The position numbers were made by a program, and so were the translations under genes. The notes under the pieces were generated by a model. It was not told where the DNA came from, did not search any database, and saw only the letters and a list, made by a program, of their open reading frames with translations. A DNA stretch of 64,000 bases from Spartobacteria bacterium (GTDB taxonomy: Bacteria; Verrucomicrobiota; Verrucomicrobiia; Chthoniobacterales; UBA10450), in assembly GCA_003134765.1 (NCBI GenBank), contig PLCM01000026.1, positions 37,283 through 101,282 on the forward strand. The letters run 5' to 3'. This document shows positions 4,784 through 39,150 of the stretch, piece after piece (positions within the stretch are counted from its first letter, which is position 1; each line of letters begins with the position of its first letter).

Positions 4784-4843
4784 GTTAGTTCCTGTTCTCC
4801 GACGTCTACCATGCTGAATCTGCCACGTTTGAAGAGGATTTTG

Positions 4844-4867
4844 GTAGGGCGAGACTCTGTCGAGCCG
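4844..4867. repeat. Copy of a dispersed 24-bp element
   Basis: The 24 bases at 4844-4867 are the exact reverse complement of the core found twice near 55932-55955 and 56190-56213. It lies in the 124-bp gap between the convergent cysNC and methyltransferase genes. REP-like, function unknown. Confidence 0.7.
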
Positions 4868-4907
4868 GGTGGTTTCAGACGCGTTCGTTTCGGCTCCTGT
4901 GAAAACA

Positions 4908-5675: not shown

Positions 5676-5691
5676 GGACGATGAGATGGAC

Positions 5692-10877: not shown

Positions 10878-10986
10878 TTTCTTGACCGCCTGATATAGTG
10901 ACTCTAATGGCCTGAAAAGGCTTTCACCGAAACGAGGAAATAAAAGAACGCCGATAGGCCAGAGCCGCACGGAGATTTTGCACCGC

Positions 10987-12614: not shown

Positions 12615-12637
12615 GCGGAAGCGGCTGAGGTATCTGA

Positions 12638-24615: not shown

Positions 24616-24827
24616 TGGCGGTTAGCATGCTGCGTAAATTGACAGCGTCTTGATCGGCATACGGAGCAGATGACACGATGCGAAATCTCTGTCAAACTGG
24701 TTGATACCCGAATCTCTCGATCCAGAATAGCCCGCGATTCTTCACCGATCAAGTCGACGAGATGTAAGGAAAAGCTTTTTATGGAATTGGCATTAGGAGA
24801 CTCTATCCTGGAAACATCGCGCCGAGA

Positions 24828-25163
24828 TTGAACTCGACTGATTTTTTGATCATCGGCGGCGGGATTATCGGGCTCAGCATAGCCCGGGAGCTGAAACGTC
24901 GTTTTCCTGGCGCTCGCGTGACCTTGTTAGAAAAAGAAGCTGCGTATGGGCTGCATGCCAGCGGCCGGAACGGCGGCGTAATCCCTCGAAGATCGAGTGA
25001 AAGAACTGGAAGCGGCAAGAAACGCGTCACTTTGACAAAAGGGTGTATTAAATTATTAATCTTCGAAAGGGCGGCTGCGCAGATTCCGTTTATCGGCTCA
25101 CCATCTAAAGCTCTCTGGCATAGCAAGTCCAATGGCCTCGTGTTCGAAGGCTGTTCGTATTAG
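24828..25163 (+). pseudogene. N-terminal relic of an LhgO-like FAD-dependent oxidoreductase
   Basis: The first ~55 residues (DFLIIGGGIIGLSIAREL, RVTLLEKEAAYGLHASGRNGGV) are the FAD-binding start of L-2-hydroxyglutarate oxidase-type enzymes. After SGRNGGVI the frame loses all similarity; short matching words occur in another frame (RVKELEAARNASL near 24993-25031) and the frame ends at 25163, about 300 residues short of a full enzyme. No catalytic domain remains. It overlaps the 3' end of the next minus-strand gene by 4 nt. Confidence 0.78.
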
Positions 25164-26029
25164 ATTCGCCGGCCAACGAGAAGGAGTGAACCCCCGGCTG
25201 GGAAGGAAGAGCCGATTTTGATGAAGAGTCGTTCGACATCCATAACACGGCGTAAGATAAAATTTGTGGCCGCACCGATCTTGAATTCAGCCGCAGGATC
25301 ATATCGTTGTTTCGAAGAGGCGCCGGTTAAGCGCGAAACGAACATGAGTGGCAAGAGAAACGACACAAAAGACGTCACTCTTACGACCTCGAATCCGCTC
25401 CGCTCGACCTTATTTCTCAACTCATGTGCGCTATACCGACGCACGTGTCTGGCATAATCGTCGGCCTGACTCCAAAGAAAGGCATGTTGTGGAACCGTGA
25501 TTATGATACCGCCTCCTTTTCGCGTAGCCTGATGCATCTGCGAAAGCACCAGCTCGTCCTCTCGGATGTGCTCTAGGACGTCGAAGGCGCCAATGACATC
25601 GAAATTCTCCGCAAACGGAATGCGCCGCGCATCCATTTGGAACAGCTCGACTCCGGGGAGGCGCCGGGCGGCAATCGACAGCCCCGCGGTGAATACCTCG
25701 CTGCCAGACAAGGTTAGCTCAGGTAATGCGTCTTTGATGCCTGATAATACAAAGCCGGTCCCGCATCCAATCTCCAGAAAATTAGCGGCTTGAGGGAAGT
25801 ATTGTTTTAAGGCCCAAATAATCAGCCGATTTCGTGAGGTGAACCAAAAATTGCCTACTTCAAGTTTGGAAAGAGTGTCGAAATAGCTGGCTTCAAACCC
25901 TTCGCTCTCTTCCGCCAGTTCTGGGGCGAAAGCAAAATGGCCCTCCAGTATTTCCGGTTCATAGTGGCAAAATGGGCATTCGTACCCAAAACGCTCAAAA
26001 CGTCCGTTGCACTTCATGCAAACTAGCAT
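25160..26029 (-). CDS. SAM-dependent methyltransferase with N-terminal zinc ribbon
   Basis: 289 residues. CMKCNGRFERFGYECPFC (~4-21) is a zinc ribbon. The SAM domain has NFLEIGCGTGFVLSGIK (~83-99), FDVIGAFDVLEHIREDE and GGGIIITVPQHAFLWS; DYARHVRRYSAHELRNKVERSGFEV and a hydrophobic C-terminal part follow, as in the methyltransferase at 4908. A single minus-strand gene, 153 bp downstream of the propeller gene. It probably modifies a sugar or polyprenyl-linked glycan (context). Confidence 0.85.
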   Translation of the reverse strand: MLVCMKCNGRFERFGYECPFCHYEPEILEGHFAFAPELAEESEGFEASYFDTLSKLEVGNFWFTSRNRLIIWALKQYFPQAANFLEIGCGTGFVLSGIKDALPELTLSGSEVFTAGLSIAARRLPGVELFQMDARRIPFAENFDVIGAFDVLEHIREDELVLSQMHQATRKGGGIIITVPQHAFLWSQADDYARHVRRYSAHELRNKVERSGFEVVRVTSFVSFLLPLMFVSRLTGASSKQRYDPAAEFKIGAATNFILRRVMDVERLFIKIGSSFPAGGSLLLVGRRI

Positions 26030-26182
26030 TGTTGAAATTCGTGTTGGACCAAGTGACGCTTGCCTAGCTACAACGACATATTGTCCGGCGAGACCTTTTT
26101 AACTCCATCCGACTAGCTCGCGCGTCGGACATCGTCACCTTCACGGGATCATAATCGTCAAGTGCGTCGCATAACAACCACA

Positions 26183-27082
26183 TCATTCTAGAACAGCCAA
26201 ACCGACCCCAGTTCGCCCGAATTGATTACCGTTGTAAGTCATGAACTGTCTGCCGTGGACCTCGAAGACATGCGCATACTCCACCATTTCACTATCCCAA
26301 CCGGATTCTGACACCGTAATACCACTGGCCTCGTCCCTTCGTGTCCAGTTGACTCCATCTTCGGAAGTTGCAAATCCGATTCGATAAGACAGCCCGCGGT
26401 GGGAGTACCACATCTCATACAACCCGTTTCGTTTGACCACGCAGGGTTTGCCGATCGCATGTTCCGTTTCATCGCGATACGTAATGCATCGAACACCGGA
26501 CCGATCCCAGTGGAGGCCATCCGTCGATGTAGCAAACTTAATACAGTAAAAATGTCGCCACGCGGTGCCGACACGCTCCCATCGGTCGAACGATGTGTAC
26601 CACATTTTCCAGCCGTCGACCTCCCGCAACACGCACACCGAACCTGTCCCGATCGGCTCCGTCGCCGTCCTTTCCAACAAAGGAGCGCGGGTGATGCGCC
26701 TAAATTCGCCGCCTTTTGGTGCCTCGGCAATTCCAGTGGTGTTGATGAACCCAGCCAGTCCGCCCGCGATCCAGCCCACGTAGTAAAGCATAGTTCGCGG
26801 CCCGTCATCTACGAGCCACGGATAGGAAACTCCCCGTTCGTCGAAACATCCTGGCTCTCCGACGTCGAAGACGGGCTTTTCAGAGACGTGAAGGATCGTT
26901 TTCATATCCCGCAGATCCAGATCTACCGATCCGATCCGCGAGATGTTCTGTTCGTCGCGCCCGGACATATAAACCCTCATCGCGTTGCCTTCCAGCCGCA
27001 CAAACGTGGGCCCGGCGCAAGCGCTCATCCACGGTATCTCCGGATGTGGTTCAATTATCTTCCCGAGCTTCCGCCATTTCAT
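26183..27082 (-). CDS. Five-bladed beta-propeller protein, glycoside-hydrolase-43/130-like
   Basis: 299 residues. It has a series of blade repeats with acidic and aromatic residues: PWMSACAGPTFVRLEG, MRVYMSGRDEQN, FDERGVSYPWLVDD, KMWYTSFDRWE, LYEMWYSHRG, IGFATSEDGVNWTR and QFMTYNGNQFGRTGVGLA. The 'W-Y-S' and 'ATSxDGxxW' words are typical of GH43/GH32/GH130-type propellers. Such stand-alone propellers recur in O-antigen clusters without known activity. No signal peptide is seen, so it is probably cytoplasmic. A role in glycan remodelling or phosphorolysis is only inferred. Confidence 0.7.
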   Translation of the reverse strand: MKWRKLGKIIEPHPEIPWMSACAGPTFVRLEGNAMRVYMSGRDEQNISRIGSVDLDLRDMKTILHVSEKPVFDVGEPGCFDERGVSYPWLVDDGPRTMLYYVGWIAGGLAGFINTTGIAEAPKGGEFRRITRAPLLERTATEPIGTGSVCVLREVDGWKMWYTSFDRWERVGTAWRHFYCIKFATSTDGLHWDRSGVRCITYRDETEHAIGKPCVVKRNGLYEMWYSHRGLSYRIGFATSEDGVNWTRRDEASGITVSESGWDSEMVEYAHVFEVHGRQFMTYNGNQFGRTGVGLAVLE

Positions 27083-27165
27083 GATATCTACTAGTCTAAA
27101 GGAAAGTCCTTTGAAAACGCTTTTGTAACCTCAACCGGGTTCGGTTGTGCCGCAACGTCCGGCGG

Positions 27166-28305
27166 TTACGTGGCGAACGCGAAATCGGTGATCGCTGTTA
27201 CCACCCGCGCCTGATCTTCCTCGGTCAGATCATTATAAAACGGCAGGCGGAGGAGCCGATCGCTTATATTTTCGGTAACCGGGCACGCTGACACCTTATC
27301 GCCTTGGAGACGGCGGCCCATGGTCGAAAGATGAAGCGGTTGATAATGAAATACACTATTAATGTCGCGGGCCTTCAGCTCCTTAATCAAGCGCTGCCGC
27401 TCTTCCAATGAACTCAAAAGCAAGTAAAACATATGATAGGGCTGCTCGCAATCCGGCGGCACCATTGGAAGCTGCACTCCACGCTCCTCGGCCCAGCCTC
27501 TTAGATGCCCATGGTAGTATTCCCAAATTCGCTTCCGCTTCAATTGAATCGTTTCTCGCGCTTCAAGTTGAGCGTAGAGGAAGGCCGCGAGGACATCAGA
27601 AGGTAGATAACTGGAACCGACATCCACCCAGGTATACTTATCGACCTGGCCGCGGAAGAAACGGCTGCGGTTCGTGCCTTTCTCGCGGATAATCTCCGCG
27701 CGCTCAATGTATTGCGGATCGTTAATCAACAGCGCCCCGCCCTCGCCGCAGGTAAAGTTCTTGGTTTCATGAAAGCTCTGCGTCGCCATGCAACCGAAAG
27801 TTCCAAGATTTTTGCCTTTATACCTCCCAAATAAACCGTGGGCGTTGTCCTCAACTATGGGGATTTGATGTCGGCCGGCGATGTCCATGATAGTATCCAT
27901 TTCGCACGCGACTCCGGCGTAATGGACTACGACAATCGCTTTGGTGCGCGGTGTAATGAGCGCTTCGAGTTGCGATTCATCAAGATTCAGTGTGTCGGCT
28001 CGGATATCCATAAAAACCGGAACCGCGCCCCGCAGGACAAAAGCGTTAGCCGAAGAAACAAAAGTGAACGAGGGAATGATTACCTCATCCCCAGGTCGAA
28101 TGTTCAGAAGCAGCGCGGCCATTTCGAGCGCGTGGGTACACGATGTAGTCAGGAGCGCCTTTGAAACGCCCAGCTCATTTTCGAGAAGCGCATGGCATTT
28201 CTTGGTAAATGTGCCGTCACCGGACAGCTGCCAGTTTGCGATAGCCTGTTGGATAAATTCAAACTCTCTTCCTGAGAAAAAGGGACGATTAAACGGAATT
28301 CTCAA
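27166..28305 (-). CDS. wecE: dTDP-4-amino-4,6-dideoxygalactose transaminase (WecE/RffA-like)
   Basis: 379 residues, a full-length match to WecE/RffA: start IPFNRPFFSGREFEFI, CTHALEMAALLLNI, VEDNAHGLFG (D153 stacking on PLP), and SFHETKNFTCGEGGALLIND with Schiff-base K182, which is nearly invariant in WecE. It converts dTDP-4-keto-6-deoxyglucose to dTDP-4-amino-4,6-dideoxygalactose (Fuc4N) with glutamate. The rmlA/rmlB precursor genes are not in the window. It lies 29 nt after the SMR-like membrane gene and is the last gene of the minus-strand unit reading from 33.5 kb. Confidence 0.92.
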   Translation of the reverse strand: MRIPFNRPFFSGREFEFIQQAIANWQLSGDGTFTKKCHALLENELGVSKALLTTSCTHALEMAALLLNIRPGDEVIIPSFTFVSSANAFVLRGAVPVFMDIRADTLNLDESQLEALITPRTKAIVVVHYAGVACEMDTIMDIAGRHQIPIVEDNAHGLFGRYKGKNLGTFGCMATQSFHETKNFTCGEGGALLINDPQYIERAEIIREKGTNRSRFFRGQVDKYTWVDVGSSYLPSDVLAAFLYAQLEARETIQLKRKRIWEYYHGHLRGWAEERGVQLPMVPPDCEQPYHMFYLLLSSLEERQRLIKELKARDINSVFHYQPLHLSTMGRRLQGDKVSACPVTENISDRLLRLPFYNDLTEEDQARVVTAITDFAFAT

Positions 28306-28334
28306 GGTGGACCTTTCAGGGACCGACGAACACT

Positions 28335-28733
28335 CTATCCGCGGCTCGCCACTACGATGCCCGCCACTACTAGCAAAACGCCAAGGATCTTCGACGTCGT
28401 GATCGCTTCATGAAAAAACACGGCGCTAAGTATCAGGACGAAGATAAAAGCTAAACTCATAAAAGGATAGGCATAAGACAACTCGAACTTAGTCATGGCC
28501 GCCAACCAACAGATGAGCGCCGCGAAGCCGGCTGCCATCGCGCTTATGACCCACGGGTTCAAGACCAAGGCTATCAAAAAATACACCTTGTCCGAGAGAA
28601 AGGCGGGCAAAGCACCAGCCTTACCGACCTGCCATTTCACTACGAGTTGTCCATAAACCGTGAAGAAAATGCTCCCGAAGACAAAAGCGAACCCGGTCGC
28701 ACTGTTCTGCCAAGATCCACTTAGACTGCTCAT
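28335..28733 (-). CDS. Small EamA/SMR-like membrane protein (ArnE/ArnF-like)
   Basis: 132 residues, four hydrophobic helices: FAFVFGSIFFTVYGQLVVKW, FLIALVLNPWVISAMAAGF, CWLAAMTKFELSYAYPFMSL, and FVLILSAVFFHE...LGVLLVVAGIVVAS. Sequence and size match SMR-superfamily lipid-sugar flippase subunits such as ArnE/ArnF rather than drug pumps. The neighbour at 28956 is an ArnC-like glycosyltransferase, so together they may make and flip a polyprenyl-phosphate-linked monosaccharide (inference). 222 bp without a gene separate them. Confidence 0.82.
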   Translation of the reverse strand: MSSLSGSWQNSATGFAFVFGSIFFTVYGQLVVKWQVGKAGALPAFLSDKVYFLIALVLNPWVISAMAAGFAALICWLAAMTKFELSYAYPFMSLAFIFVLILSAVFFHEAITTSKILGVLLVVAGIVVASRG

Positions 28734-28955
28734 TCGTTGAACACGGCCACTTTTTGCCGACCCGAGAGCGACGCTTGTCGACCTTGGCCGAATGACGCAG
28801 GGTCGGTCGACAGAATTGCCTCGGCCCTGTGCCGAGGGAAGCCGGACCGATTGCTATCGCGCTTTTTGTCCATGGAATATTCGCAATGCCCGCACCATTT
28901 ACCATCTCCCCGGGGCGGGAGCAAGGTAATCGGTGGAATTGCGGCGCATCTACAC

Positions 28956-29948
28956 TTAAATTTCGCTAGCGGCATATGCGCCAGAACCGGGGCCGGCGGC
29001 GCTACTGGACGCCGAAGACCGATCAGGTCCATGGATCGCCTTGATAATTGCGTAGGGCCTCTGCTTTACCTCGGCAAAAATCTTCGAAAGATAAATTCCA
29101 ATAACGCCCAGCCAAAAGATCGTGATTCCACCCAAAAGCCAGATGGAAACGATTAGCGATGCCCACCCCTCCAGCAAGACGCCGAAAAACAGCCGCCGGA
29201 TAATCAAATCAAGAGCAGCGAGTCCCGAGACTGTAACAAGGATACAGCCGGTATAGAAAATAAGAACGAGAGGCTTGGCACTAAAGGAGGTGACGGCATC
29301 TACTAGCAGAGCAATCTTCCGCCGCAGGCCGTAAGCGCTGGCACGCTTGTGGTGTTTGGTAACGGTCATCGGAATCTGGGTATATCCAGTCAAAGCCCAT
29401 AAGCCGGAGATCACGAATTCCCTCTCTTCATGCTGGCAAAGCGAAACAACATATCGGCGAGTCATTAACCGAGCAGTCAGGTGGTTGGCGGGAATTTGAT
29501 GGGTGGATAACAGATTGAATACCTTGAAAAACAACGCTCCGCTGAGCCGCTCGAAAAGATGGCCCTTCCGCCTTTGCTGCACACCGTAGACAACGTCGGC
29601 ACGCTTCGCCGTTAACTCTTCATAAAACGGACCGAGGAGTTCCGGCTCCTCCTCGAGATCGCTGTCGACCAGGAATACGAGATCGCCTCCTGCCTGGCGC
29701 AGGCCGCACATCATCGCCTTGTGGTGTCCAAAATTTCTCGAAAGGTCAACGACCCGGACCCTTTGGTCCCTCCGGTATATGTCAAGCGCGACCGCGAGGG
29801 AGTCATCGGGCGACCCGTCATTAACGAAGATAATTTCAAAGTTATGCGTTAACCGCTCCGCGATGGCACACGTCCGAGCATAAAACTCCTGCAAATAAGG
29901 AGCAGATCGATAAAGCGTAGTGACAATGGAAAGGGTCATTCCAGACAT
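28956..29948 (-). CDS. ArnC/DPM1-like polyprenyl-phosphate glycosyltransferase
   Basis: 330 residues. GT-A domain: TLSIVTTLYRSAPYL, FVNDGSPDDS (41-50), SRNFGHHKAMMCGL and LVDSDLEEEP (93-102). Two C-terminal transmembrane helices (KPLVLIFYTGCILVTVSGLA ~224-245 and LIVSIWLLGGITIFWLGVIGIYL ~265-287) are typical of ArnC/GtrB enzymes that load a sugar on undecaprenyl phosphate. The start overlaps the end of the amidohydrolase gene by 13 nt, so the gene is translationally coupled to the aldolase/amidohydrolase operon. Confidence 0.88.
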   Translation of the reverse strand: MSGMTLSIVTTLYRSAPYLQEFYARTCAIAERLTHNFEIIFVNDGSPDDSLAVALDIYRRDQRVRVVDLSRNFGHHKAMMCGLRQAGGDLVFLVDSDLEEEPELLGPFYEELTAKRADVVYGVQQRRKGHLFERLSGALFFKVFNLLSTHQIPANHLTARLMTRRYVVSLCQHEEREFVISGLWALTGYTQIPMTVTKHHKRASAYGLRRKIALLVDAVTSFSAKPLVLIFYTGCILVTVSGLAALDLIIRRLFFGVLLEGWASLIVSIWLLGGITIFWLGVIGIYLSKIFAEVKQRPYAIIKAIHGPDRSSASSSAAGPGSGAYAASEI

Positions 29949-30691
29949 TCTCCGGCCCGCGCATTCTCTCCAAAGAATAAGAGCTCGGCGTTATCAAAGA
30001 ATATTCTTTGAGCCTGATCTTGGGTGAACTCAAGTTCATTCAATAAATTCATCAATATCGCACATTGAAGCTGAGGAGACCCATATGGGTAATCGCTACC
30101 GAACATTACCCGGGAATCGTCCGTAAAACGGATGAGCTTTCGCATGTCCAAGAATGCGGACGAATCGTGCAGGTACTGGAGACTGAAAGAGAGATCGTAC
30201 CATACATTTTTCAGCTCCCTTAGGTGGAAAAAATATCTCAGTAACTCGTAACCGCCAGCGTGGGCGATAACGAATTTCAGATCCGGAAAAGTTCTAATCA
30301 CCTCTGCAGTTTTATCGAGGTTCGGCTGGTAATCCATCTCCGAGCCATAATAAAAGGAGTCAATAATCACCGGAAAGCCCGGCGGAACGAGCCTGAGCTT
30401 GTTATGGAAAAGTTGATAATCCTTTCGTCTAATCTTTTGCACCCGGCTATGAATCTTAAGAGCTTGGATTCTCTTTAAGCGGATTAGTTCGGCCGCAACG
30501 TCAAAACGTTCGAGATCCAGAATTAGACTGATGGCATCGCCCCGCGGAACATCGACACTGCGCTGTTCAAAGGAATCGATATCATTGAAAATGATATTCC
30601 TTTTTGAAATGGCGAGATCGTAGCCTGTCAGGCCATTTTCAATATGGGCGTGGCAGTCGAAGATTTTGATAACCGTTTTAGCGTGTAACAA
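29936..30691 (-). CDS. Amidohydrolase-family (TIM-barrel) protein
   Basis: 251 residues. FDCHAHIE (H14 and H16, metal ligands), FVIAHAGGYE (third His) and MFGSDYPYGSP (catalytic Asp) are the marks of amidohydrolase-2 (ACMSD/gamma-resorcylate decarboxylase-like) enzymes, which hydrolyse or decarboxylate small substrates. It is slightly shorter than typical members (~280). It overlaps the upstream methyltransferase by 14 nt and the downstream ArnC-like gene by 13 nt. Such an enzyme in a glycan cluster is unusual; lactone hydrolysis, deacylation or decarboxylation of a sugar or acyl precursor are possible. Confidence 0.83.
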   Translation of the reverse strand: MLHAKTVIKIFDCHAHIENGLTGYDLAISKRNIIFNDIDSFEQRSVDVPRGDAISLILDLERFDVAAELIRLKRIQALKIHSRVQKIRRKDYQLFHNKLRLVPPGFPVIIDSFYYGSEMDYQPNLDKTAEVIRTFPDLKFVIAHAGGYELLRYFFHLRELKNVWYDLSFSLQYLHDSSAFLDMRKLIRFTDDSRVMFGSDYPYGSPQLQCAILMNLLNELEFTQDQAQRIFFDNAELLFFGENARAGECLE

Positions 30692-31334
30692 AAGTCATGA
30701 AATCAGGGTAAACGGTGTAATTCTTGTCGAACGTCTCCCGTTTATCAATAAATACCGTGAATTCGAAAGGCATGTAGTCATTCCTCAATGTGACCCGGTT
30801 GGAATACCGGTAAGCTAACTCGAGGATGCTGACCGGATCAGCATGATAAGTGTCCGCCAGCTCAAATTCCACTCTATTCGAGAGAAAATTCACGGCAAAG
30901 CCTCTAGTCGCATACTTATCGAACAGGTCGAAGGTGTCAGTGATGAATTGCCAGTTGTCTTCGATTTTAAAGTTGTGGACGCCCGAGGAAAAAATGTAGT
31001 CGTATTGACGCGGCAGCCCATCTTCAAAGACGTCGGCTGAAAAGAGCTCGGCTTCTGGAAAGTGCCTCCGACCTTCCGCGATTAATTGTGGATTTATGTC
31101 GACACCGACATAGCGAACGGTGGGATCAAGTTCTTTGCAGTGGTCGTACATGTCCCCAAAGCCACAGCCAAAATCCAGAATGGTCGCATCCTGCAAGCTC
31201 CAATGCGACAAGAGGATGTGGAAGCGCAGCTTCTGCTTGCCTTTCGTCCATCCAAGTGTCCGCGGATCGCGGCCGAATTCAGCCAGGCGTCTATTGTATC
31301 GATCGATGACGATTTGATTTTCAGTCGGCTTCAT
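30678..31334 (-). CDS. SAM-dependent methyltransferase
   Basis: 218 residues from ATG 31334 (an upstream in-frame ATG at 31388 would add 18). QDATILDFGCGFGDMYDHC is the SAM loop, RYVGVDINPQLIAEGR the acidic strand, and YDYIFSSGVHNFKIEDNW the motif-IV region. The NWQFITDTFDLFDKYATRGFAVNFLS part resembles methyltransferases of secondary-metabolite and O-antigen loci. It is coupled by overlap to the amidohydrolase downstream, and lies 77 nt after the Rossmann-like gene. Confidence 0.83.
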   Translation of the reverse strand: MKPTENQIVIDRYNRRLAEFGRDPRTLGWTKGKQKLRFHILLSHWSLQDATILDFGCGFGDMYDHCKELDPTVRYVGVDINPQLIAEGRRHFPEAELFSADVFEDGLPRQYDYIFSSGVHNFKIEDNWQFITDTFDLFDKYATRGFAVNFLSNRVEFELADTYHADPVSILELAYRYSNRVTLRNDYMPFEFTVFIDKRETFDKNYTVYPDFMTFVTR

Positions 31335-31411
31335 TTGCCCCACTCGGTTATTTCGCGTTGTGTCAGTGACTTTCCGTGGAAGTTTCATGCCCGACAGGCA
31401 CCTCGCCGCTT

Positions 31412-32437
31412 TTAAATGGCAGCAATAAGTCGCTTAACGAATAGCAGATCCTCGCTTTCCTTGGCCGTCTCGGGAGTAAAGTTTACTCGACCCTTTCCGT
31501 CAGCGATCCCAATAACGTAGGTGGGCTTGTAGACGTTATCCACGATTACAGCCCCCTTGCAACCGAGGATACCACCCGAGACTAATTCCACGTCCTTGAT
31601 ACACACGGTGCCCATCATTTTTGTGATCAGATAATCAGTCTCGAAAAGCGACAAGACCATGCTAGAGATACCCGCCCGGTTATCGAGACGGTAAACCTGA
31701 TCTTCGCGGTCTCGTGCGGTGACAATGAAATCCGCCGAGAAATTACCAATGCCCATGTCATAAATATTAATGCCGCGGGGTAATCGTTGTGCGATGCGAT
31801 CGTCCACGCTGACCTGCTTGATTGAGGCGCCGATCAACAGATCTATCCCGCTGAGGTCGCAGGAGTCGTCGATCGTGCCGGCAATTTTCTCGAAACCGGT
31901 AGGGGACGCGCCTCGCAACTGCTGGTGCTGGGATGAACTCTGGCCAGGCAGGTAAAATAGATTCGTGCCGTAATCCGACAGGTTATTCAGCAGCTTCGTC
32001 ACGAGAATGCCGGTGCCGGCGATGAGGATATTCTTACCATTTAGTCCCTTCTCGACGTGCTGAATAAAGGTCAGGGCTGACTCAGCCCACACGTTGGTGT
32101 CGCTATAATAAAAGACTTTCGCTTTCGTAACGACGCCCCTTACATAATCAATCAAGGCACGCGACCGTTCGTGTTTCGCATCCGAGTCCATGGCGATCGC
32201 GTCGAAAGTTCCGTCCGCGTGCGCGAACACATACTTGAGGGTCTCAAGGTCGCCCAGCTCAACGAATGCGATGATGTTTGAAATGCTTTCTCGCACGGCA
32301 GGGAGCAAAATCTCCGTGTCTTCGGCGGTAGGAAATTGTTGAATCACCAGGATCGAACTTTTGTTTGTCTGTTCAACCAGGAACTGTGCGGCCGCTATTC
32401 TCTGAAGAAAGGTGGATTGAAAGGCAGCAAAGTCCAT
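31412..32437 (-). CDS. Unrecognised Rossmann-like protein, partner of the aldolase
   Basis: 341 residues; I do not recognise the family. A glycine-rich GKNILIAGTGILVTKLLNNL (~134-153) looks like a dinucleotide-binding turn, and a preceding domain (SSILVIQQFPTAEDTEILLP, FDAIAMDSD) has an alpha/beta pattern. LIGASIKQVSVDDRIAQRLP and NIYDMGIGNFSADFI fit a dehydrogenase-like second half, with LVSGGILGCKGAVIVDN near the C-terminus. It starts immediately after the aldolase stop (TAA then ATG, no gap), the arrangement in which 4-hydroxy-2-oxovalerate aldolases partner a dehydrogenase, but it is not a recognisable acylating aldehyde dehydrogenase. Confidence 0.7.
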   Translation of the reverse strand: MDFAAFQSTFLQRIAAAQFLVEQTNKSSILVIQQFPTAEDTEILLPAVRESISNIIAFVELGDLETLKYVFAHADGTFDAIAMDSDAKHERSRALIDYVRGVVTKAKVFYYSDTNVWAESALTFIQHVEKGLNGKNILIAGTGILVTKLLNNLSDYGTNLFYLPGQSSSQHQQLRGASPTGFEKIAGTIDDSCDLSGIDLLIGASIKQVSVDDRIAQRLPRGINIYDMGIGNFSADFIVTARDREDQVYRLDNRAGISSMVLSLFETDYLITKMMGTVCIKDVELVSGGILGCKGAVIVDNVYKPTYVIGIADGKGRVNFTPETAKESEDLLFVKRLIAAI

Positions 32438-33493
32438 TTAGCGAATGTCCTTATGGTAGAACTTCGGAAAAAAGATTCTTACTTTTTGCCTCTTGGCGAG
32501 CTGTTGAGCCACGGTGACAATCAAATTCTCAGATGGGTTTTCCTTATTAATCTTGCTAACCTCAACGATTAATTCCTGGTAATCGACCTTGTGCTTCTCA
32601 GCATACGTGTCGACGAGCTTTAGATACGAATCGTGGAAGAGAGCATAACCAAGCACCAGCTCGAGACCATCGGAGCCTTTCAGTTTGCCTGTCTTTGGTA
32701 GGATATACTTCTCACTTATCTTTGAGACCCTTAGGGCGTCGATCTCGATTGGAAAACCGGCCTTCCTCAAAATGACGAGCATCGTTTCGCTCTGAGCGTT
32801 TCCGGCTCCTCGGCCCATTCCCATAAGAGTAGTGTCCACTACGTCGGCTCCATTCTCCACTGCCGCCAGACTATTCGCGTTTGCCATGAGTAAATTATTG
32901 TGACCATGGAAACCTACTTTGGTCGCGAGGCACTCCTTCATTCTGGCGATATATTGGGCAACCTCTCTTGGGACCATTCCCCCGGCGCTATCGACTAGGG
33001 ATATACAGTCCGCACCAAACCGTTCAACGCGAGTGGCCCTCAGACACAGCTCGTAAGGCGAGACGGTATAAGATTTCATGAAGTTGTATCCCACTTCCAG
33101 TCCCAGCCCCTTGGCAAATTGAATATACTCTTCCGCGTCGTCGCTGTCGGAAACGTTGGTTCCGACGCGAATAAAGTCGCCGCCATTCGCGCGAAAGGTC
33201 TCAATATCCTGTAGATTGCCCGTGCCGGGGATGAAAAATACCCCGATCTTGGCCTTGCCCTTATTGGCAACGGCCGCCGAAACATATTCCGCGTCGGTGC
33301 ATATCGAGGAAACTTTTTTTCGGTGCGCGCCAAGCCCAATTCCGTTTCCGACTTCGATATAGCGGAACCCAGCGATGGATAGCTCGCGGACAATGTTTTT
33401 AACGTCGTCCTGTGTCCAGGCACCATCGATGACGTAGCTTCCGTCGCGTATCGTACAATCGAGAATCTCGACCGCGTGGGGACCAGCGCTCAT
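32438..33493 (-). CDS. DRE-TIM (HMGL-like) aldolase
   Basis: 351 residues from ATG 33493. ILDCTIRDGSYVIDG is the metal-binding/catalytic D-R-D turn (canonical D-x-T-x-R-D). FGADCISLVDSAGGM and VGFHGHNNLLMANANSLAAVENGADVVDTTLMGMGRGAGN (HxH metal site and G-rich loop) match 4-hydroxy-2-oxovalerate aldolase and HMG-CoA-lyase-like enzymes. The C-terminal ~90 residues differ from MhpE. It is first in a minus-strand operon (aldolase, Rossmann-like, methyltransferase, amidohydrolase, ArnC-like). An aldol cleavage or condensation of an oxo-acid is expected; the substrate is unknown. Confidence 0.85.
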   Translation of the reverse strand: MSAGPHAVEILDCTIRDGSYVIDGAWTQDDVKNIVRELSIAGFRYIEVGNGIGLGAHRKKVSSICTDAEYVSAAVANKGKAKIGVFFIPGTGNLQDIETFRANGGDFIRVGTNVSDSDDAEEYIQFAKGLGLEVGYNFMKSYTVSPYELCLRATRVERFGADCISLVDSAGGMVPREVAQYIARMKECLATKVGFHGHNNLLMANANSLAAVENGADVVDTTLMGMGRGAGNAQSETMLVILRKAGFPIEIDALRVSKISEKYILPKTGKLKGSDGLELVLGYALFHDSYLKLVDTYAEKHKVDYQELIVEVSKINKENPSENLIVTVAQQLAKRQKVRIFFPKFYHKDIR

Positions 33494-33546
33494 TCTGAAA
33501 ATGCTACCAGCATTTCGCAGATTCGTCGAGATTCTATCCCGCACGG

Positions 33547-33561
33547 CCCGGGGTCCCCGGG
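33547..33561. promoter_or_regulatory. 15-bp GC palindrome upstream of the aldolase operon
   Basis: CCCGGGG-T-CCCCGGG, a perfect 7-bp inverted repeat, lies 54 nt upstream of the aldolase ATG in the divergent intergenic region. It could be an operator or part of the mRNA leader of the minus-strand unit. Confidence 0.4.
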
Positions 33562-33627
33562 ATAACGGTGTCTGCCCTCACTGGGCCGAATTGCACTTGA
33601 CACGAAAAATCTGCGGCAAAAAAGCTT

Positions 33628-33656
33628 TTGAGCAACCTTAAACTTGCCCATATACT
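33628..33656 (+). promoter_or_regulatory. Sigma-70-type promoter of the oxygenase/ATP-grasp pair
   Basis: TTGAGC (33628-33633), a 17-bp spacer and TATACT (33651-33656) form one of the best promoter matches in the window. The predicted start near 33663 gives a leader of about 134 nt before ATG 33797. Confidence 0.62.
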
Positions 33657-33662
33657 GCGGCC

Positions 33663-33796
33663 AACAATCACGGGCTGACGCCCCAGAATTTTGGGGTCAT
33701 TAGTGGGGGATTCCAGCCTTCAGTAAGCGAACACACTGAGGCGTTGAATCGCCGGTTCTGGAGGCAGGCCGGTGGTAACCACGAGAGAATACACAC
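33663..33796 (+). promoter_or_regulatory. Structured 5' leader, possible cis-regulatory RNA
   Basis: Within the ~134-nt leader, CCCCA/TGGGG pair around GAATTT (33681-33696), GCC-TCAGT/ACTGAGGC pair with one bulge across 33717-33742, and a CGCCGG/CCGGTG helix lies just before the coding region. Three consecutive stems in a leader this long suggest regulation of the downstream genes. I do not recognise a known riboswitch class. Confidence 0.35.
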
Positions 33797-34582
33797 ATGT
33801 TTGCACGAAACGTAATCTATTTGGACAACCATTCACGCGCAATCGACGAGCCAGGTCAGATTGAGGAGATGAGGAAGAATATCCAGCAGGGGGATGTTTA
33901 TATCGCGAAGAACGTTTTCGAGAAAGACCTGATCCAAAGGATGCTGGAATATCTGACGAGAGTGGGCTGGGGATCGTTGCCGAACTACAAAAAGATTGAA
34001 AAAGGTTGCCCGAATTTTCATCGCATGAATCTCTGGGACCCTCGAGCCTTTGTGCAGGGCTGTTTTCATCAGTTTGTTTTTTTCCCGTGGAATCAGGACG
34101 TCTTCAACCTGTTCGAGGTCACCCGGTCGGTTTATTACATGAAGAACCTTTTGAGCGGAAATCCAAAGGACAAGTTTCTGGGAATGGAGCCGGAAGACGG
34201 GTGCACTTCGCGTCTCGCCTTTCAGTTTTACCCGAAGGGCACGGGAGGACTAAACAAGCACAGCGACCCGGTGGATCATCACCAGTTATCGGTGCCGACA
34301 CTAACGATGTCGAAGAAAGGGACTGATTTCAACGAGGGCGGGGCCTACGCGGAAAGCGCAAATGGAGAGAAAATCTATTTGGATGACGTCTCAGAACCAG
34401 GGGACGTCGTATATTTTAACGCGATCATCCCCCATGGCGTAGAAAAGATAGATCCTCGTTCAGCGGTCGACTGGCTTTCGTTTAAAGGGAGATGGATGCT
34501 TCTTTTCGCAACCAATAAACTCTCTGATAATTCTGCGATTCGAGATGCTGTTGACTTGGAAAAGGGCCCCAAAGCCGCCTAA
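33797..34582 (+). CDS. 2-oxoglutarate/Fe(II)-dependent oxygenase-like protein
   Basis: 261 residues. The jelly-roll iron triad appears as H155-x-D157 (NKHSDPVDHH) and H213 (IIPHGVEKID), and R232 (GRWMLLFATN) is well placed to bind 2-oxoglutarate. SRLAFQFYPKGTGGLNKHSD and PGDVVYFNA are characteristic strands. It probably hydroxylates a small molecule, an amino acid or an aminoacyl sugar. Its stop shares one base with the ATG of the ATP-grasp gene (TAATG), so the two are a coupled pair driven by the promoter at 33628. Confidence 0.82.
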   Translation: MFARNVIYLDNHSRAIDEPGQIEEMRKNIQQGDVYIAKNVFEKDLIQRMLEYLTRVGWGSLPNYKKIEKGCPNFHRMNLWDPRAFVQGCFHQFVFFPWNQDVFNLFEVTRSVYYMKNLLSGNPKDKFLGMEPEDGCTSRLAFQFYPKGTGGLNKHSDPVDHHQLSVPTLTMSKKGTDFNEGGAYAESANGEKIYLDDVSEPGDVVYFNAIIPHGVEKIDPRSAVDWLSFKGRWMLLFATNKLSDNSAIRDAVDLEKGPKAA

Positions 34583-35778
34583 TGACTCGTGAGCTCAGCG
34601 GGAAAAGAATATTAATTCTGGGGGCCGGCGCCTGGCAGGCCCCTTATATTCAGAAAGCAAAAAAGCTCGGGTTAAGAGTCTTCGCCACGGACTGGGAGGA
34701 TAGCGCCCCGGGCGCGCCTGTAGCAGATGTCTTCAGAAGGATTGATCTTCGAGACAAAGAACGATCCCTCGCCTTTGCGTCGGAAAGCCGAGTGGAAGCG
34801 ATATTTACCTCGGCCGACATCGGGGTTCCTACGGCCGCATTTGTAGCGGGCAAGTTGGGGCTCCGCTACCATAGTCAGGAAGTAGCTCTGGCCGCCACGA
34901 ACAAGCGGGTAATGCGAGATAAGGCCAAGGCATCCGGGCTTAGCGGCCCGCGATACTTCCCTTGCCGCAGTCTCGCAGACGCGCTGGCGGGATCTCGGGA
35001 AATTGGGTTCCCATTAATCATGAAGCCCGTGGACAACTGCTCCAGCCGCGGTGTCTCCGTAGTCGAGGATGCACGGCATCTGAAGAATTATTATCGGGAA
35101 TGCGAACGGGCGTCTTTTAGCGGTGAGATTATTATCGAAGAGCTCATGCAGGGAACGGAAGGATCGATTGAAGCCTTGGTAGAAGACGGCAAAGCCGTAC
35201 TGCTTGGTGTCTGCGACAAGCAGAAGTCACCCCTGCCTTACCGTTACGACCTGCAACTCAATTATCCGGGCAGTTATTCTAATCAGCAATTCGTGGCGAT
35301 CAACGAGTTTGCCCAAAGATTGGTGGACGGGTTTGAAATCAAAAACGGGATCATTCACGTGGAAATCATGATCACGGCCAACTCTGTGCGTTTAATTGAA
35401 CTTGCGGTCAGAGGCTGCGGAAGCAACGTTATTACTCACCTCATCCCTGCAATGACGGGGTTTGATGTGATGGAGTATCTGTTCCTCCGAGCATTTGGAA
35501 TGAGGAAAGACATCACCTTTACCGAAGATAGGCCAGGCCTGTTACGGTTTATAATGCTGAAACCGGGTAAGATAAAAGCGATCACAGGTGTCGCCGCGGC
35601 CTGGAAAACCAAGGGGGTTCTTGACTTGAAAATTGAACGGGAAGCCGGGGACATAATCGCGGAGGTGAAAGACGGTCGAAGTAGGCCCGGCTACATGCTC
35701 TTGGTTGCTAATTCCAAGGAACAATTGGAGGCGATCGCAAAATCGGTGGAAGAACGGCTGGCGGTTTCGTATTGTTAA
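34582..35778 (+). CDS. ATP-grasp ligase (carboxylate-amine ligase type)
   Basis: 398 residues. The pre-ATP-grasp Rossmann part RILILGAGAWQAPYIQKAKKLG is typical of the carbamoyl-phosphate-synthase/PurK-like superfamily. The ATP-grasp part has FPLIMKPVDNCSSRGVSVV, GEIIIEELMQGTEGSIEALV, IIHVEIMIT and RLIELAVRGCGSNVITHLIP, the last with the metal-binding E and N. Members form amide or peptide bonds from a carboxylate, ATP and an amine. Coupled to a 2OG oxygenase, it could attach an acid or amino acid to an amino sugar (inference). 193 bp without a gene follow. Confidence 0.87.
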   Translation: MTRELSGKRILILGAGAWQAPYIQKAKKLGLRVFATDWEDSAPGAPVADVFRRIDLRDKERSLAFASESRVEAIFTSADIGVPTAAFVAGKLGLRYHSQEVALAATNKRVMRDKAKASGLSGPRYFPCRSLADALAGSREIGFPLIMKPVDNCSSRGVSVVEDARHLKNYYRECERASFSGEIIIEELMQGTEGSIEALVEDGKAVLLGVCDKQKSPLPYRYDLQLNYPGSYSNQQFVAINEFAQRLVDGFEIKNGIIHVEIMITANSVRLIELAVRGCGSNVITHLIPAMTGFDVMEYLFLRAFGMRKDITFTEDRPGLLRFIMLKPGKIKAITGVAAAWKTKGVLDLKIEREAGDIIAEVKDGRSRPGYMLLVANSKEQLEAIAKSVEERLAVSYC

Positions 35779-35971
35779 CAAAATTTTATTTGGATCGGAG
35801 GCTCGCTTCGAAGAGTTCTCCCGGACGTTGCTTTTGGATAGTTCCCGAACGCCCTCGAAGGTCATCGGAGCAAGGTGAAATTCCATGCCTAAACGCAAGC
35901 GATCTCCCTATCGTCTCTGTTGCCGAAGGCTCGCCGCATCGGCCCCAAAATGGATTCAAGTGTGACAGTGA

Positions 35972-38431
35972 TTACTTATTTTCCGCGTCCAGAACTACGA
36001 GATTATGTATGCCGAAAGCAATGAGCCTCGGATCCCCGTTTCCTGGAGGGCTGGGGGGCTGATCGGTTGTAAAGCGCAGTTTGTTTGGACCCGGCAGTAA
36101 GGTAACTTTAGATAGTTGTACGGATTCGGTGCTGGGGTGGTCGAAGCGGATCGTTCGTTCAGTTTCTCCAATTTGGACAAAGACCGTGCGCGGCGTGAAC
36201 GTTGAGACACCGAATCGAATCTCTCGTGTCACTGGGGAATCGAAGTAGCTGAAAAAAGATACTTCCGAGTCGCCAAGAGACCAATCCCACGTCGACCCAC
36301 TGGCTCCGTCTTCCTCTAGCCCTTGGAACCCTTTTTCATATCTAACTTGTACGCCTTTCTCACTTGGCTCCATGTCAAAATAGGACACGACCAAGCTGGA
36401 GAGATCGATGGGACTTGTTGACCGGACGGTCGTTTTCGGAAAATCATCGAGGACCCCACTCCGATCAATCGGGCACGCGAACAGGCGGTCTTGGTTTTCT
36501 CCCACGAGCTGATTGTTTACCACAATTTTTGTTGGAGTTTCGCCAGGAGAGCATTGACCGATTAGCGTAAATTTCTTGTTCTTACTATAAGTGAATAGCG
36601 CGAAATCGGTGGCATAGAGGAAACGCGCGACTGGTGATACGCCCTCCAATTTAGCGAATACAATGTACTGGTCTGGTTCTTTCGATTCTTGTTTGTAGTC
36701 CAAAAAGTAAAGTTGACTGCCGAAAGTTTTACGGACGAGCTGGCTGATTTCGCGCGGCTCCCGGACTACCTGTACTACTTTCCCGGATTTCTGCGTGAAA
36801 TAGGCGGTCCAATAACCAGGGTCGTGGGCCAGAATCCCCCGAGTCCGCCAAAGGGATGGCGCGTAAATGACGGCGTTCGCAGGTAACGCCTTGAAATCCT
36901 CGGTTTGAATAAAGTGGTCCAAGACGGTCCACTTTAGATACGCGAGACGTTGATCATTGGTGATGTAGTAGTTATAGAAATCAGTAGCAAAGGACCCAGC
37001 TGCAACGACACTGGAAGCAAACACAACGTAAGATAATAATAAGATCCGCGATCGCCCGATCTTCTGATTTAGAAAAATCAAGATCGACGTTAACAGAAAC
37101 ACCATAGCAAAGTACGAGTAGTAACTAGGAGAATGCGCCAAGCTATGCGATTCCAGCACCCAACTCTGATACTTGGTAGTGAATCCGAGAGGCAACACCG
37201 GCGCGGCGATGCATGCGACACCAGCTATCACAGCCAACGAAAATGATTTGGCCGTAAAGATCCTGGGCCGCCCTAGAAGAATGCTCGCGCATAAAATTGA
37301 TACAATTAGCGCTTTGACGACCCATTCAATCCGACATCGGTCGACTAGCTCAGTGAAACCTATCGCGTGGTATCCGAAACCGTCGAACGTAGCCTGGACC
37401 GCCCCGGGATCGCGCAGGTAAAAATAGCCAGGAAGTGTTGATGTGGCGTATTGCCATACAACCGCCCCAATGCGCCCAGCATTGAATGGGGCAATCTGAT
37501 TTCCTTCGTAGTGTGAAGGATGGTAAACGCGGAAGATGCAATACGTGCCGAAGTAAAAAATCAAGGCCAAGAGAATAGGGGAAAAAGCCTTCGTTACACC
37601 GGCAATTCTATCTTTCAGAATCATCTTTCGATTTGACAACCCCTTGTAAATGCAGAAACCAAAAAACACCAAGCAATATGGCGCGAAACTTTCGTAGACT
37701 AACAAAGAGACAAAATAGGCAATTCCGCTAAGAACAGCAAAGCTAAGTTCCTCTCGCCGCTGCCAGTCGATAAAAAACAGGAAACTACAAAACAAGCTGC
37801 TCAGCCCAAAATGAGGGACAAAGGGGTAAGAGGTCAAAAAGCTATGGTACCAGTTATTCTCAAGGAATGTGAGGCCCAGAGCGGCAGCAAGAAGAGCAAA
37901 AGCCGACGAACAAAACATCTTCCTAAGCAAGAGGTAGAACAGCGCAACGTTCAATAGGATCGAACCTAGTTGAAACGTATAGTACCAGGCTGGGTGCCGA
38001 AAATAGTGTGGCAAGAACAAACCCATCATCGTGAGTACCGAGTAAAAGCGACCTTGGGCGGCCGCGAAATTCAGAGCTTGGTGTAACAGGCCACCGCGCT
38101 GCCCTGCCATGAGTGCGATCTCGGTATCGTCTTTCGTCGTAAACCCAATCTGTAGATACGGAAACAAAGCGATGAGGGCCAGAAGGGAGAGCGCCGTAAC
38201 AACTGCAATCTTCAGATAGCGCCTCAATAGAATGGGCTCTTGTGGTGAGCCATGCACCCTGCGCGACTCAATCGATGCGGCGGCGCTCGACGAGAGCGGA
38301 TCTGGATTCTCCGGTGAGATATGAAGCTTGTGCGTCCGTTGCATCGACAGAGCCAACTCTATTTTTGAAAGTGGTACGAGTCGAGATGGTAAAACGGATT
38401 GCTCAGTCCCGCAAGGGGATTTGACATTCAA
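35972..38431 (-). CDS. Large polytopic membrane protein, candidate GT-C glycosyltransferase or polymerase
   Basis: 819 residues. Residues ~70-470 contain about eleven hydrophobic helices (VVTALSLLALIALFPYLQIGF, GSILLNVALFYLLLRKMF, AFALLAAALGLTFLENNWYHSF, and so on). Acidic and His residues in the loops (GFTTKDDTEIALM near ~95, PFVPHFG) are as in GT-C enzymes. A soluble C-terminal part (~500-819) is beta-rich and ends in a jelly-roll-like domain (TPRTVFVQIGETERTIRFDHPST). The first ~60 residues are polar and may follow a later true start (MQRTHKL). No close family is recognised; Wzy-like polymerase or lipid-linked glycosyltransferase are the alternatives. Confidence 0.68.
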   Translation of the reverse strand: MNVKSPCGTEQSVLPSRLVPLSKIELALSMQRTHKLHISPENPDPLSSSAAASIESRRVHGSPQEPILLRRYLKIAVVTALSLLALIALFPYLQIGFTTKDDTEIALMAGQRGGLLHQALNFAAAQGRFYSVLTMMGLFLPHYFRHPAWYYTFQLGSILLNVALFYLLLRKMFCSSAFALLAAALGLTFLENNWYHSFLTSYPFVPHFGLSSLFCSFLFFIDWQRREELSFAVLSGIAYFVSLLVYESFAPYCLVFFGFCIYKGLSNRKMILKDRIAGVTKAFSPILLALIFYFGTYCIFRVYHPSHYEGNQIAPFNAGRIGAVVWQYATSTLPGYFYLRDPGAVQATFDGFGYHAIGFTELVDRCRIEWVVKALIVSILCASILLGRPRIFTAKSFSLAVIAGVACIAAPVLPLGFTTKYQSWVLESHSLAHSPSYYSYFAMVFLLTSILIFLNQKIGRSRILLLSYVVFASSVVAAGSFATDFYNYYITNDQRLAYLKWTVLDHFIQTEDFKALPANAVIYAPSLWRTRGILAHDPGYWTAYFTQKSGKVVQVVREPREISQLVRKTFGSQLYFLDYKQESKEPDQYIVFAKLEGVSPVARFLYATDFALFTYSKNKKFTLIGQCSPGETPTKIVVNNQLVGENQDRLFACPIDRSGVLDDFPKTTVRSTSPIDLSSLVVSYFDMEPSEKGVQVRYEKGFQGLEEDGASGSTWDWSLGDSEVSFFSYFDSPVTREIRFGVSTFTPRTVFVQIGETERTIRFDHPSTESVQLSKVTLLPGPNKLRFTTDQPPSPPGNGDPRLIAFGIHNLVVLDAENK

Positions 38432-38551
38432 ACAGAATAATTAGTGCAATGACCGCGATGTCGTTTAGACGCCCCTGTCCGGTGAACGGACGCATAAATT
38501 CTGTTTAGATCGCGAAGCGATGCAGCTGTCAGGGAAAAAAAGGCACCGAAC

Positions 38552-39150
38552 TAGGCCAGTACGTCGAGATACTTTCGTTCGACTCGACCCCAAGAATAAC
38601 GTTTTCGCACGTAGTTTTTTTCCTTGTCGTCCTAAAATCGCCTTTGTGCTTTCATCAATCATTTCAAGGGCCGCAGACCATTCTGCGAAGTTGTCGTACC
38701 AGATACCCCCATCTGCTTCCTGGCAATGAGCTTTCAGGACGTCGCAACGACCGCTGACAATGGCGGGGCGTGAGAAGCTGCAAGCTCCAGCGAGACCATG
38801 GAAAGACTCTCGTATTCAGGGGGATCACAAGCCAACCACAAATACCCAGCGCTTCAAATTTTTCTCTTTCGCTGACGAAGCCGAGGTGAATGATGTCATC
38901 ATGAAACGGGATCGACGTTGGCGGATGGTAGGTGCCACAATTTCCTCAGGGCCTGCCTGGTAAAAGTTATCCCAACTCATGTAATCCAAGGCGCACGTGG
39001 TAAGAACCTCGGTCTTCCAATACTTGGCCATTCGCTGATCGCTTTGGAGGCGATGAAACTCAGCTCCGCCCTTCACTTCTCGACCGGAGCGGCCTTGGGT
39101 CTTGCGATCACATCTGAGCTTTAACAGCAGCGACAGCTTTAGGTCTCTTC
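38552..39150 (-). pseudogene. Decayed tandem copy of the neighbouring GT4 glycosyltransferase
   Basis: Reading leftwards, translated pieces match the intact gene at 39166-40350 in order: GREVKGGAEFHRLQ and KYWKTEVLTTCALDYMSW (N-terminus), DDVIHLGFVSEREKFEALG, RPAIVSGRCDVLKAHCQEAD, GGIWYDNFAEW and YSWGRVERKYLDVLA with a TAG at 38552-38554. At least three frameshifts separate them, and about 200 residues of the middle are deleted (join near 38900). The order and the closeness to the intact copy point to a tandem duplication followed by decay. Confidence 0.85.

Follow-up and report, generated by a model that had tools for sequence, protein, structure and literature searches.

The window examined here, a stretch of 64,000 nucleotides from a Spartobacteria bacterium, lies inside a single contig (PLCM01000026.1) of a genome of 4.05 Mb that is 94% complete. 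Between positions 28956 and 35778 it carries seven open reading frames arranged in two divergent units, which, together with adjoining genes, probably direct the N-acylation of an amino sugar by an unusual route. The unit on the minus strand holds, in ascending coordinates, a glycosyltransferase (28956–29948), an amidohydrolase (29936–30691), a methyltransferase (30678–31388), a protein of 341 amino acids (aa; 31412–32437) and an aldolase (32438–33493); the unit on the plus strand consists of a probable Fe(II)/2-oxoglutarate (2OG) oxygenase (33797–34582) and an ATP-grasp protein (34582–35778). The frames overlap by 13 nt (29936–29948), 14 nt (30678–30691) and 1 nt (34582). The stop codon of the aldolase abuts the start of the 341-aa protein (32438/32437), and 23 bases lie between the latter frame and that of the methyltransferase. 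This frame check agreed with an earlier note on the same DNA as to the seven genes, their overlaps and the abutment of TAA and ATG. That note had also described a strong promoter at 33628 and a structured leader, both of which turned out to be at chance level: the promoter is a 9/12 match, of which shuffled sequences contain 0.6 on average, and the fold of the leader has z = −1.04, with 32 of 200 shuffles folding equally well. No Rfam match was found in 24000–39000.

Pfam and NCBIfam supported the family names given before to the GT2 glycosyltransferase, the Amidohydro_2 hydrolase, the S-adenosylmethionine (SAM) methyltransferase, the HMGL-like aldolase and the ATP-grasp protein; the probable 2OG oxygenase has no family match and owes its name to its motif pattern. 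The borders of the module had been drawn too narrowly, since four more genes of the minus strand belong, by sequence comparison, to a wider set. The first is WecE (27166–28305), a dTDP-4-amino-4,6-dideoxygalactose transaminase scoring 573 bits against NF008687 (cut-off 375) and 534.7 against TIGR02379 (cut-off 434.85); RmlB is present in the genome, over its cut-off. An ArnF/EamA-like flippase subunit (28335–28733) falls in the EamA family but below the ArnF-type model NF002816 (53 bits, cut-off 99), and has relatives 46% and 58% identical in two other loci (L104 and L126; loci are designated here by our own numbers). A GH130-like protein (26183–27082), barely at the cut-off of Pfam Glyco_hydro_130 and probably linked to amino-sugar N-acylation, is 37% identical to the product of the gene that follows the aldolase in Pseudoroseomonas. 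Finally, a class I SAM methyltransferase (25160–26029; Methyltransf_23) has homologs 48% and 46% identical in cassettes of Rhizobium sp. Q54 and Azospirillum, respectively. As for the glycosyltransferase of the module, it belongs to Glycos_transf_2 and appears to be a polyprenyl-phosphate enzyme of the ArnC/DPM1 type, 54%, 55% and 50% identical to those of L104, L107 and L126, with 120 bits against the ArnC equivalog NF007986 (cut-off 529). Relatives of these genes point to two layers, one for the sugar and its lipid carrier and one for an acid.

The aldolase, on which the acid layer is centred, is a DRE-TIM metal enzyme related to, but outside, the 4-hydroxy-2-oxovalerate aldolases DmpG/MhpE. 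It reached 249.3 bits against the DmpG equivalog TIGR03217, below the cut-off of 286, and 271.4 bits against the wider subfamily NF006049, above the cut-off of 229. Like DmpG/MhpE it has an HMGL-like domain and retains Arg33, the metal-site Asp34, His213 and His215; unlike them, it has Tyr37 at the place of DmpG His21 and His304 at that of DmpG Tyr291, all of these being residues which we take to be catalytic. The same pair is found in all 11 aldolases of the module type defined below. We considered it as a hallmark of the module and discarded the idea, because it also occurs in 8 of the 66 remaining aldolase rows, each of the eight being a large fusion; the 66 rows omit 7 of the 80 loci compared, whose aldolase was not among the gene calls, and the 80 are in turn the best of at least 493 related loci obtained by scanning genomes with the aldolase alignment. 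Since His occupies position 304 in 62 of the 66 rows, DmpG is the exception there, and one of the four DmpG-type controls aligns Ser, not His, at the first place. Moreover, the acylating acetaldehyde dehydrogenase that adjoins DmpG/MhpE in 4/4 controls is absent beside the window aldolase. In a tree of 32 chosen rows, the window and six Bacteroidales aldolases formed one group (99/98) and DmpG/MhpE another (100/99), both joining L101, L027, L005 and L006 to make up a group of 15 rows (100/100), within which the order is unresolved and L101 has a long branch. The frame remains open up to a GTG at 33544; because the DCTIRDG motif lies 28 residues in from this codon, compared with 4–9 in eight of the ten other aldolases of this type and 21 and 30 in the remaining two, the start is probably the ATG at 33491–33493. 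A separate branch, distinct from the module type, contains large aldolase fusions of 572–638 aa (L030, L037, L064, L069, L073, L078, L083, L088, L090 and L100), most of which, with the exception of L078 and L083, are near NeuB, CMP-sugar synthase or DegT genes.

The 341-aa protein encoded directly after the aldolase matched nothing in Pfam or NCBIfam. Homologs (157–198 bits) directly follow the aldolase in the six closest loci, all from Bacteroidales (L021–L026), and tblastn with six queries of this family (E ≤ 1e-3) found it in those six and in none of the other 74 aldolase loci, within the stretches compared. In addition, its C-terminal part is fused to the aldolase in L005 (655 aa) and L006 (643 aa), which belong to the phylum of the window, and the family profile left a trace inside the 614-aa aldolase of L027 (E 0.003). 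A model built from 8 rows, with a predicted local distance difference test score (pLDDT) of 72, resembles two-domain NAD-linked dehydrogenases, at a template modelling (TM) score of only ~0.3, and the profile matched the Rossmann domain of glutamyl-tRNA reductase (E 0.0014). The glycine loop (GxGxxG) is canonical in L007, altered in the Bacteroidales rows and lost in the fusions. The protein was not assigned to the ordinary 2-hydroxyacid dehydrogenases, although they are the top Foldseek folds, because of the TM of ~0.3 and the unconserved dinucleotide loop; a dehydrogenase function is plausible from these resemblances. The family is rare: it occurs in 1 of 98 relatives, namely the genome itself, in four of the phylum's 387 genomes, its own included, and neither in 72,556 plasmid records at E ≤ 1e-5 nor in phages. 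When the profile was run on 240 genomes of the class of genome G474, it returned L005, L006 and three weaker matches (G575, G465 and G384).

The probable oxygenase had no significant match in the PDB, the nearest being a weak one to a 2OG protein (E 0.098). Its assignment comes from the pattern H155-x-D157...H213...R232, invariant in all of the three sequences available. Within the phylum it was found in 1 of 387 genomes, its own, and no homolog was seen in phages and viral contigs. At E ≤ 1e-3, homologs occurred in 2 of the 72,556 plasmid records, both within ~3 kb of WecE. WecE itself was detected at E ≤ 1e-60 in 45 of those 72,556, so that a chance linkage is hard to defend. One of the two, on a plasmid of Indioceanicola (L102), has the 2OG relative beside WecE; by eye, this locus (3936–6530 and 10355–14515) also shows a different ATP-grasp-like gene near flgK/flgL-like genes, which hints at flagellin glycosylation. 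The ATP-grasp gene overlapping the oxygenase matched ATP-grasp_4 (62.9 bits, cut-off 27) and LAL_C2 (59.5 bits, cut-off 29.4), and dipeptide ligases are among the best PDB relatives of its product, a predicted amide ligase with the C-terminal domain of L-amino-acid ligases that has relatives in L005, L006, L022–L026 and L101. The amidohydrolase, perhaps a lactonase, has homologs in L006, L022 and L101.

The acid layer, formed by the aldolase, its Rossmann-like partner, the amidohydrolase, the probable 2OG oxygenase and the ATP-grasp protein, recurs as nested subsets in Bacteroidales, on a Pseudoroseomonas plasmid and in nonulosonic-acid loci. A single run in L022 comprises amidohydrolase, ATP-grasp (377 bits), aldolase, Rossmann protein and a WecE-like transaminase; L021, whose contig starts at the aldolase, has the aldolase, the Rossmann protein and the WecE-like transaminase, and L023–L026 combine aldolase, Rossmann protein and ATP-grasp. 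On the Pseudoroseomonas cervicalis plasmid (L101), WecE diverges from the aldolase, which is annotated as hypothetical, and from the GH130-like, amidohydrolase, 2OG and ATP-grasp genes. The fusions of L005 and L006 are accompanied by ATP-grasp, PseG-like, DegT and NeuB genes, to which are added, in L005, two genes related to that of the methyltransferase at 30678 and, in L006, an amidohydrolase; among ten proteins of these two loci scanned with Pfam no acyltransferase was found, one of the ten having no match at all. L007 has a homolog of the 341-aa protein beside a relative of the glycosyltransferase, and no aldolase on its 16 kb contig. Counting the window, L005, L006, L021–L027 and L101 as the 11 module-type loci, the Rossmann partner is adjacent or fused in nine, and an ATP-grasp relative is present in nine (it is missing in L027 and in L021, where the contig end cuts it). 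A transaminase with a WecE match is present in six, with lower scores in L005 (177 bits) and L006 (55 bits), and NeuB in three (L005, L006 and L027); amidohydrolase, 2OG oxygenase and methyltransferase relatives were found in four, two and two, respectively, and the complete seven-gene set in the window alone. The co-occurrence of the seven families in other genomes, on which the earlier note had made its proposal depend, holds in the form of these subsets and never for all seven. The set is rare and patchy, as might be expected for a horizontally moved cassette.

The sugar/lipid-carrier layer is also found in rhizobia, in Azospirillum and in one genome of the window's own family, where it is accompanied by a hexapeptide acyltransferase and lacks the acid genes. 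The glycosyltransferase, the methyltransferase at 30678 and the GH130-like protein have relatives in one run in Rhizobium sp. Q54, Peteryoungia and Azospirillum; a relative of the methyltransferase at 25160 is added in Q54 and Azospirillum, and an ArnF-like gene in Peteryoungia and Azospirillum. WecE itself lies nearby in the first and third of these, and ~25 kb away in Peteryoungia. In the locus from the window's own family (L126), WecE, the ArnF-like protein, the glycosyltransferase and the GH130-like protein are 71%, 58%, 50% and 41% identical to those of the window, the acyltransferase is present and the acid genes are absent from the 14.5 kb examined. Because its homologs, like those of the glycosyltransferase, occur in such loci without acid genes, the methyltransferase at 30678 was assigned to the sugar/lipid layer; it had been considered as a methylase of the acid, and methylation of the sugar is preferred, though the L005 copy adjoins the fusion.

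The GH130-like gene gave access to a wider comparison. Its relatives occur in 32 plasmid records, of which we examined five (H7–H11) besides L101; when L111 of Azospirillum, found by way of its WecE match, and four of six relatives with a match are added, there are ten loci without an ATP-grasp relative, L126 among them. In all ten, an N-acyltransferase adjoins the GH130-like gene or is one gene off, eight being of the hexapeptide type, all of one family, and two, by annotation, of the GNAT type. No close member of this hexapeptide family is present in the window, and in the rest of the genome the best match reached 23 bits, compared with 128–362 bits among family members. As the acyltransferase is found by the GH130-like gene in 10/10 loci and no close member of its family is found here, the acid set can be said to occupy the place of the N-acyltransferase of the relatives. 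That both kinds of gene may be combined in one locus is indicated by Jannaschia (L112), in which WecE and an ATP-grasp relative (100 bits) are found with an annotated CatB-type acetyltransferase. Moreover, the transaminase is by score not of the WecE type in L105, L106, L110, L124, L125 and L127, so the GH130-like gene is not bound to one sugar. WbqC-family genes recur with the methyltransferase or GH130-like gene in L104, L105, L107, L109, L110, L111, L126 and L005.

Taken together, we consider it likely, with a probability of about 0.6, that the locus serves to make an N-acylated 4-amino-4,6-dideoxyhexose borne by polyprenyl phosphate, with an acid-building set and an ATP-dependent ligase replacing the usual N-acyltransferase. 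What was observed is gene linkage, homology, the acid genes at the acyltransferase place and the active-site patterns, and from them we infer all reactions, substrates and the order of steps. By homology, WecE would make dTDP-Fuc4N, and homology likewise supports the loading and flipping named below. The aldolase would produce a 4-hydroxy-2-oxo acid by condensing pyruvate, or a similar donor, with an aldehyde or an oxo acid, and the 341-aa protein would work in complex with this enzyme, as a channelled partner or a reductase. 4-Hydroxy acids lactonise, and the probable task of the amidohydrolase is to hold the acid in its open form or else to hydrolyse some intermediate, while the oxygenase would hydroxylate the acid or the finished acyl group. 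The ATP-grasp enzyme would then activate the carboxylate and form an amide on the 4-amino group of the dTDP-Fuc4N-type sugar, which the glycosyltransferase would load on polyprenyl phosphate and an ArnEF-like flippase would turn outward. Pyroglutamate-type groups from a pyruvate dimer are, we assume, other candidates for the acyl group, not separable on present data. The earlier note had arrived at a similar scheme, in which an unusual acyl or aminoacyl group is made, oxidised and attached to an amino sugar that is then loaded on polyprenyl phosphate; the comparative evidence favours the core of this scheme, with WecE as source of the amino sugar, the ATP-grasp protein as ligase and the oxidation as a possible step, and with the correction that the methyltransferase at 30678 and the glycosyltransferase fall in the sugar layer.

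Several observations weigh against this proposal. All seven genes were found together in no other genome searched, and the GH130-like comparison covers only 5 of the 32 plasmid records besides L101, together with L111 and four of six relatives. A 199-aa acetyltransferase of another hexapeptide type (16957–17556), the only notable resemblance among the matches listed in the window (46 and 38 bits with two of nine acyltransferase queries), lies 9 kb away and could N- or O-acylate something. The oxygenase is without a family match and its model from the lone sequence is useless (pLDDT 33); the Rossmann protein has weak fold matches and a glycine loop which varies and is missing in the fusions, and its homolog is absent from L101 and L102 and reduced to the weak trace in L027. 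L023–L027 are without a WecE homolog within the stretches compared, so the acid is not always destined for a WecE sugar. Class I aminotransferases adjoin the aldolase in L027 and lie 2 kb from it in L005 and 5 kb from it in L021; the acid may thus be an amino acid there, which suggests that some versions of the set make one.

These aminotransferases also fit a different explanation, in which the ATP-grasp protein is a true L-amino-acid ligase and the aldolase product is converted into an unusual amino acid and coupled to a second amino acid, giving a small peptide-like metabolite whose genes merely happen to be sited in a glycan locus. The LAL_C2 domain and the dipeptide ligases among the PDB relatives agree with it, as do genes that by eye resemble an AMP ligase (L023 and L026) or a carrier (L026). 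However, inspection of the window set by eye revealed no class I aminotransferase, carrier protein or peptide exporter, and the recurrent linkage to WecE or NeuB/PseG, with the missing acyltransferase, favours a sugar as acceptor, which makes this explanation improbable. If the acceptor is a sugar, it could be a nonulosonic acid or a later sugar rather than Fuc4N, WecE serving another residue of the glycan. The fused aldolases in the NeuB/PseG loci L005 and L006 are in line with this, but NeuB/PseG genes were not seen by eye in the window listing, not found in L021/L022 and not annotated in L101, and we regard such an acceptor as quite improbable in the window. Lower still is our estimate for two unrelated neighbours, i.e., an operon for acid catabolism formed by the aldolase, the Rossmann protein and the amidohydrolase, as in the meta-cleavage of phenol, beside a glycan cassette. 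The kinship of the aldolase to DmpG, and the general knowledge that Amidohydro_2 enzymes are often involved in aromatic breakdown, would suit it; on the other hand, the aldolase is outside the DmpG clade, its dehydrogenase neighbour is missing, and the linkage to WecE or NeuB loci across several phyla makes this reading very unlikely.

At the borders of the set two further frames were considered. The 819-aa protein (35972–38431) adjoining the ATP-grasp gene was not accepted as a member, as it has no Pfam match and is unlike the membrane and hypothetical proteins compared in L101 and L126; by eye it is of the membrane type and could be a glycosyltransferase of the outer side. On the opposite border, a short frame at 24828–25163 resembles by eye the N-terminus of a FAD-dependent oxidoreductase, with an early stop, and is likely a gene remnant next to the cassette.

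Among known systems, sfmABCDE of Shewanella oneidensis MR-1 is, by analogy, the closest studied one. It is reported to encode enzymes of the NeuB and TPP-binding types together with a predicted reductase, a SAM methyltransferase and an ATP-grasp_4 protein. The flagellin is modified with a mono-acetylated nonulosonic acid (274 Da) plus an O-methylated moiety of 236/250/264 Da, thought by the authors to be nitrogen-free; loss of the ATP-grasp gene also shifts the flagellin mass, slightly less than loss of the other genes, and spares motility (PMC3765264). It differs from the window in having a TPP enzyme instead of the DRE-TIM aldolase and a nonulosonic acid as sugar, and no Rossmann partner, amidohydrolase or 2OG enzyme is named in its description; the likeness is one of description. 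The cassettes of Rhizobium sp. Q54, Peteryoungia, Azospirillum and G031, which belongs to the window's own family, share WecE, GH130-like, glycosyltransferase, methyltransferase and ArnF- or GtrA-like genes with the window, whereas they have the hexapeptide acyltransferase and, in the stretches compared, no relative of the aldolase, Rossmann, amidohydrolase, 2OG or ATP-grasp proteins. Amide formation on a glycan by the ATP-grasp domain of Campylobacter jejuni Cj1438 is stated as shown (PMC11800379), where it amidates a carboxylate of the sugar. In Clostridioides difficile, the type B flagellin genes CDR20291_0244–0247 include an ATP-grasp gene beside an FdtB-like amino-sugar gene, assigned by similarity only (PMC5207246). 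ATP-grasp amides on glycans are therefore already known in C. jejuni and suggested in C. difficile, and gene linkage argues here for a variant with an aldolase-made acid. Literature searches for aldolase and ATP-grasp with O-antigen or nonulosonic acid, for the T. denticola hexanoyl and for the methoxy-hexanoyl group returned no paper, mostly without subscription journals, and so say little about what is in print. As the earlier note had remarked that no described pathway has this exact set, it is worth adding that the exact set was found only in the window among the genomes searched, and that sfmABCDE differs from it.

A bolder idea, which we put forward only tentatively, is that the acid layer is an apparently undescribed, mobile acyl-building kit common to amino-sugar and nonulosonic-acid pathways. 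In it, a non-DmpG aldolase, physically coupled to its Rossmann-like partner, would turn pyruvate into a polyhydroxy acid of the C6 type, and a dedicated ATP-grasp protein would take the place of the N-acyltransferase, or of PseH. The flagellin glycan of Treponema denticola is reportedly, from a study of 2017, a mono-acetylated nonulosonic acid with 2-methoxy-4,5,6-trihydroxyhexanoyl at N7. With that structure, the computed mass of the acyl residue expected from the aldol of pyruvate and glyceraldehyde, reduced and O-methylated, is 176.068 Da and the total 450.185 Da. The mass given for this glycan is 450.2 Da (PMC9481697); the fit, of a glycan mass alone, is a lead only. If the idea is true, a mobile kit would also account for glycans like this one.

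Many odd N-acyl groups are found on bacterial surface sugars, and their biosynthesis is not worked out. The gene set described here points to a modular answer, an aldolase-made acid and an ATP-grasp ligase instead of an N-acyltransferase, and brings out a protein family unknown to Pfam, which accompanies the aldolase or forms one protein with it. The set offers concrete genes for the study of such groups in both amino sugars and nonulosonic acids.

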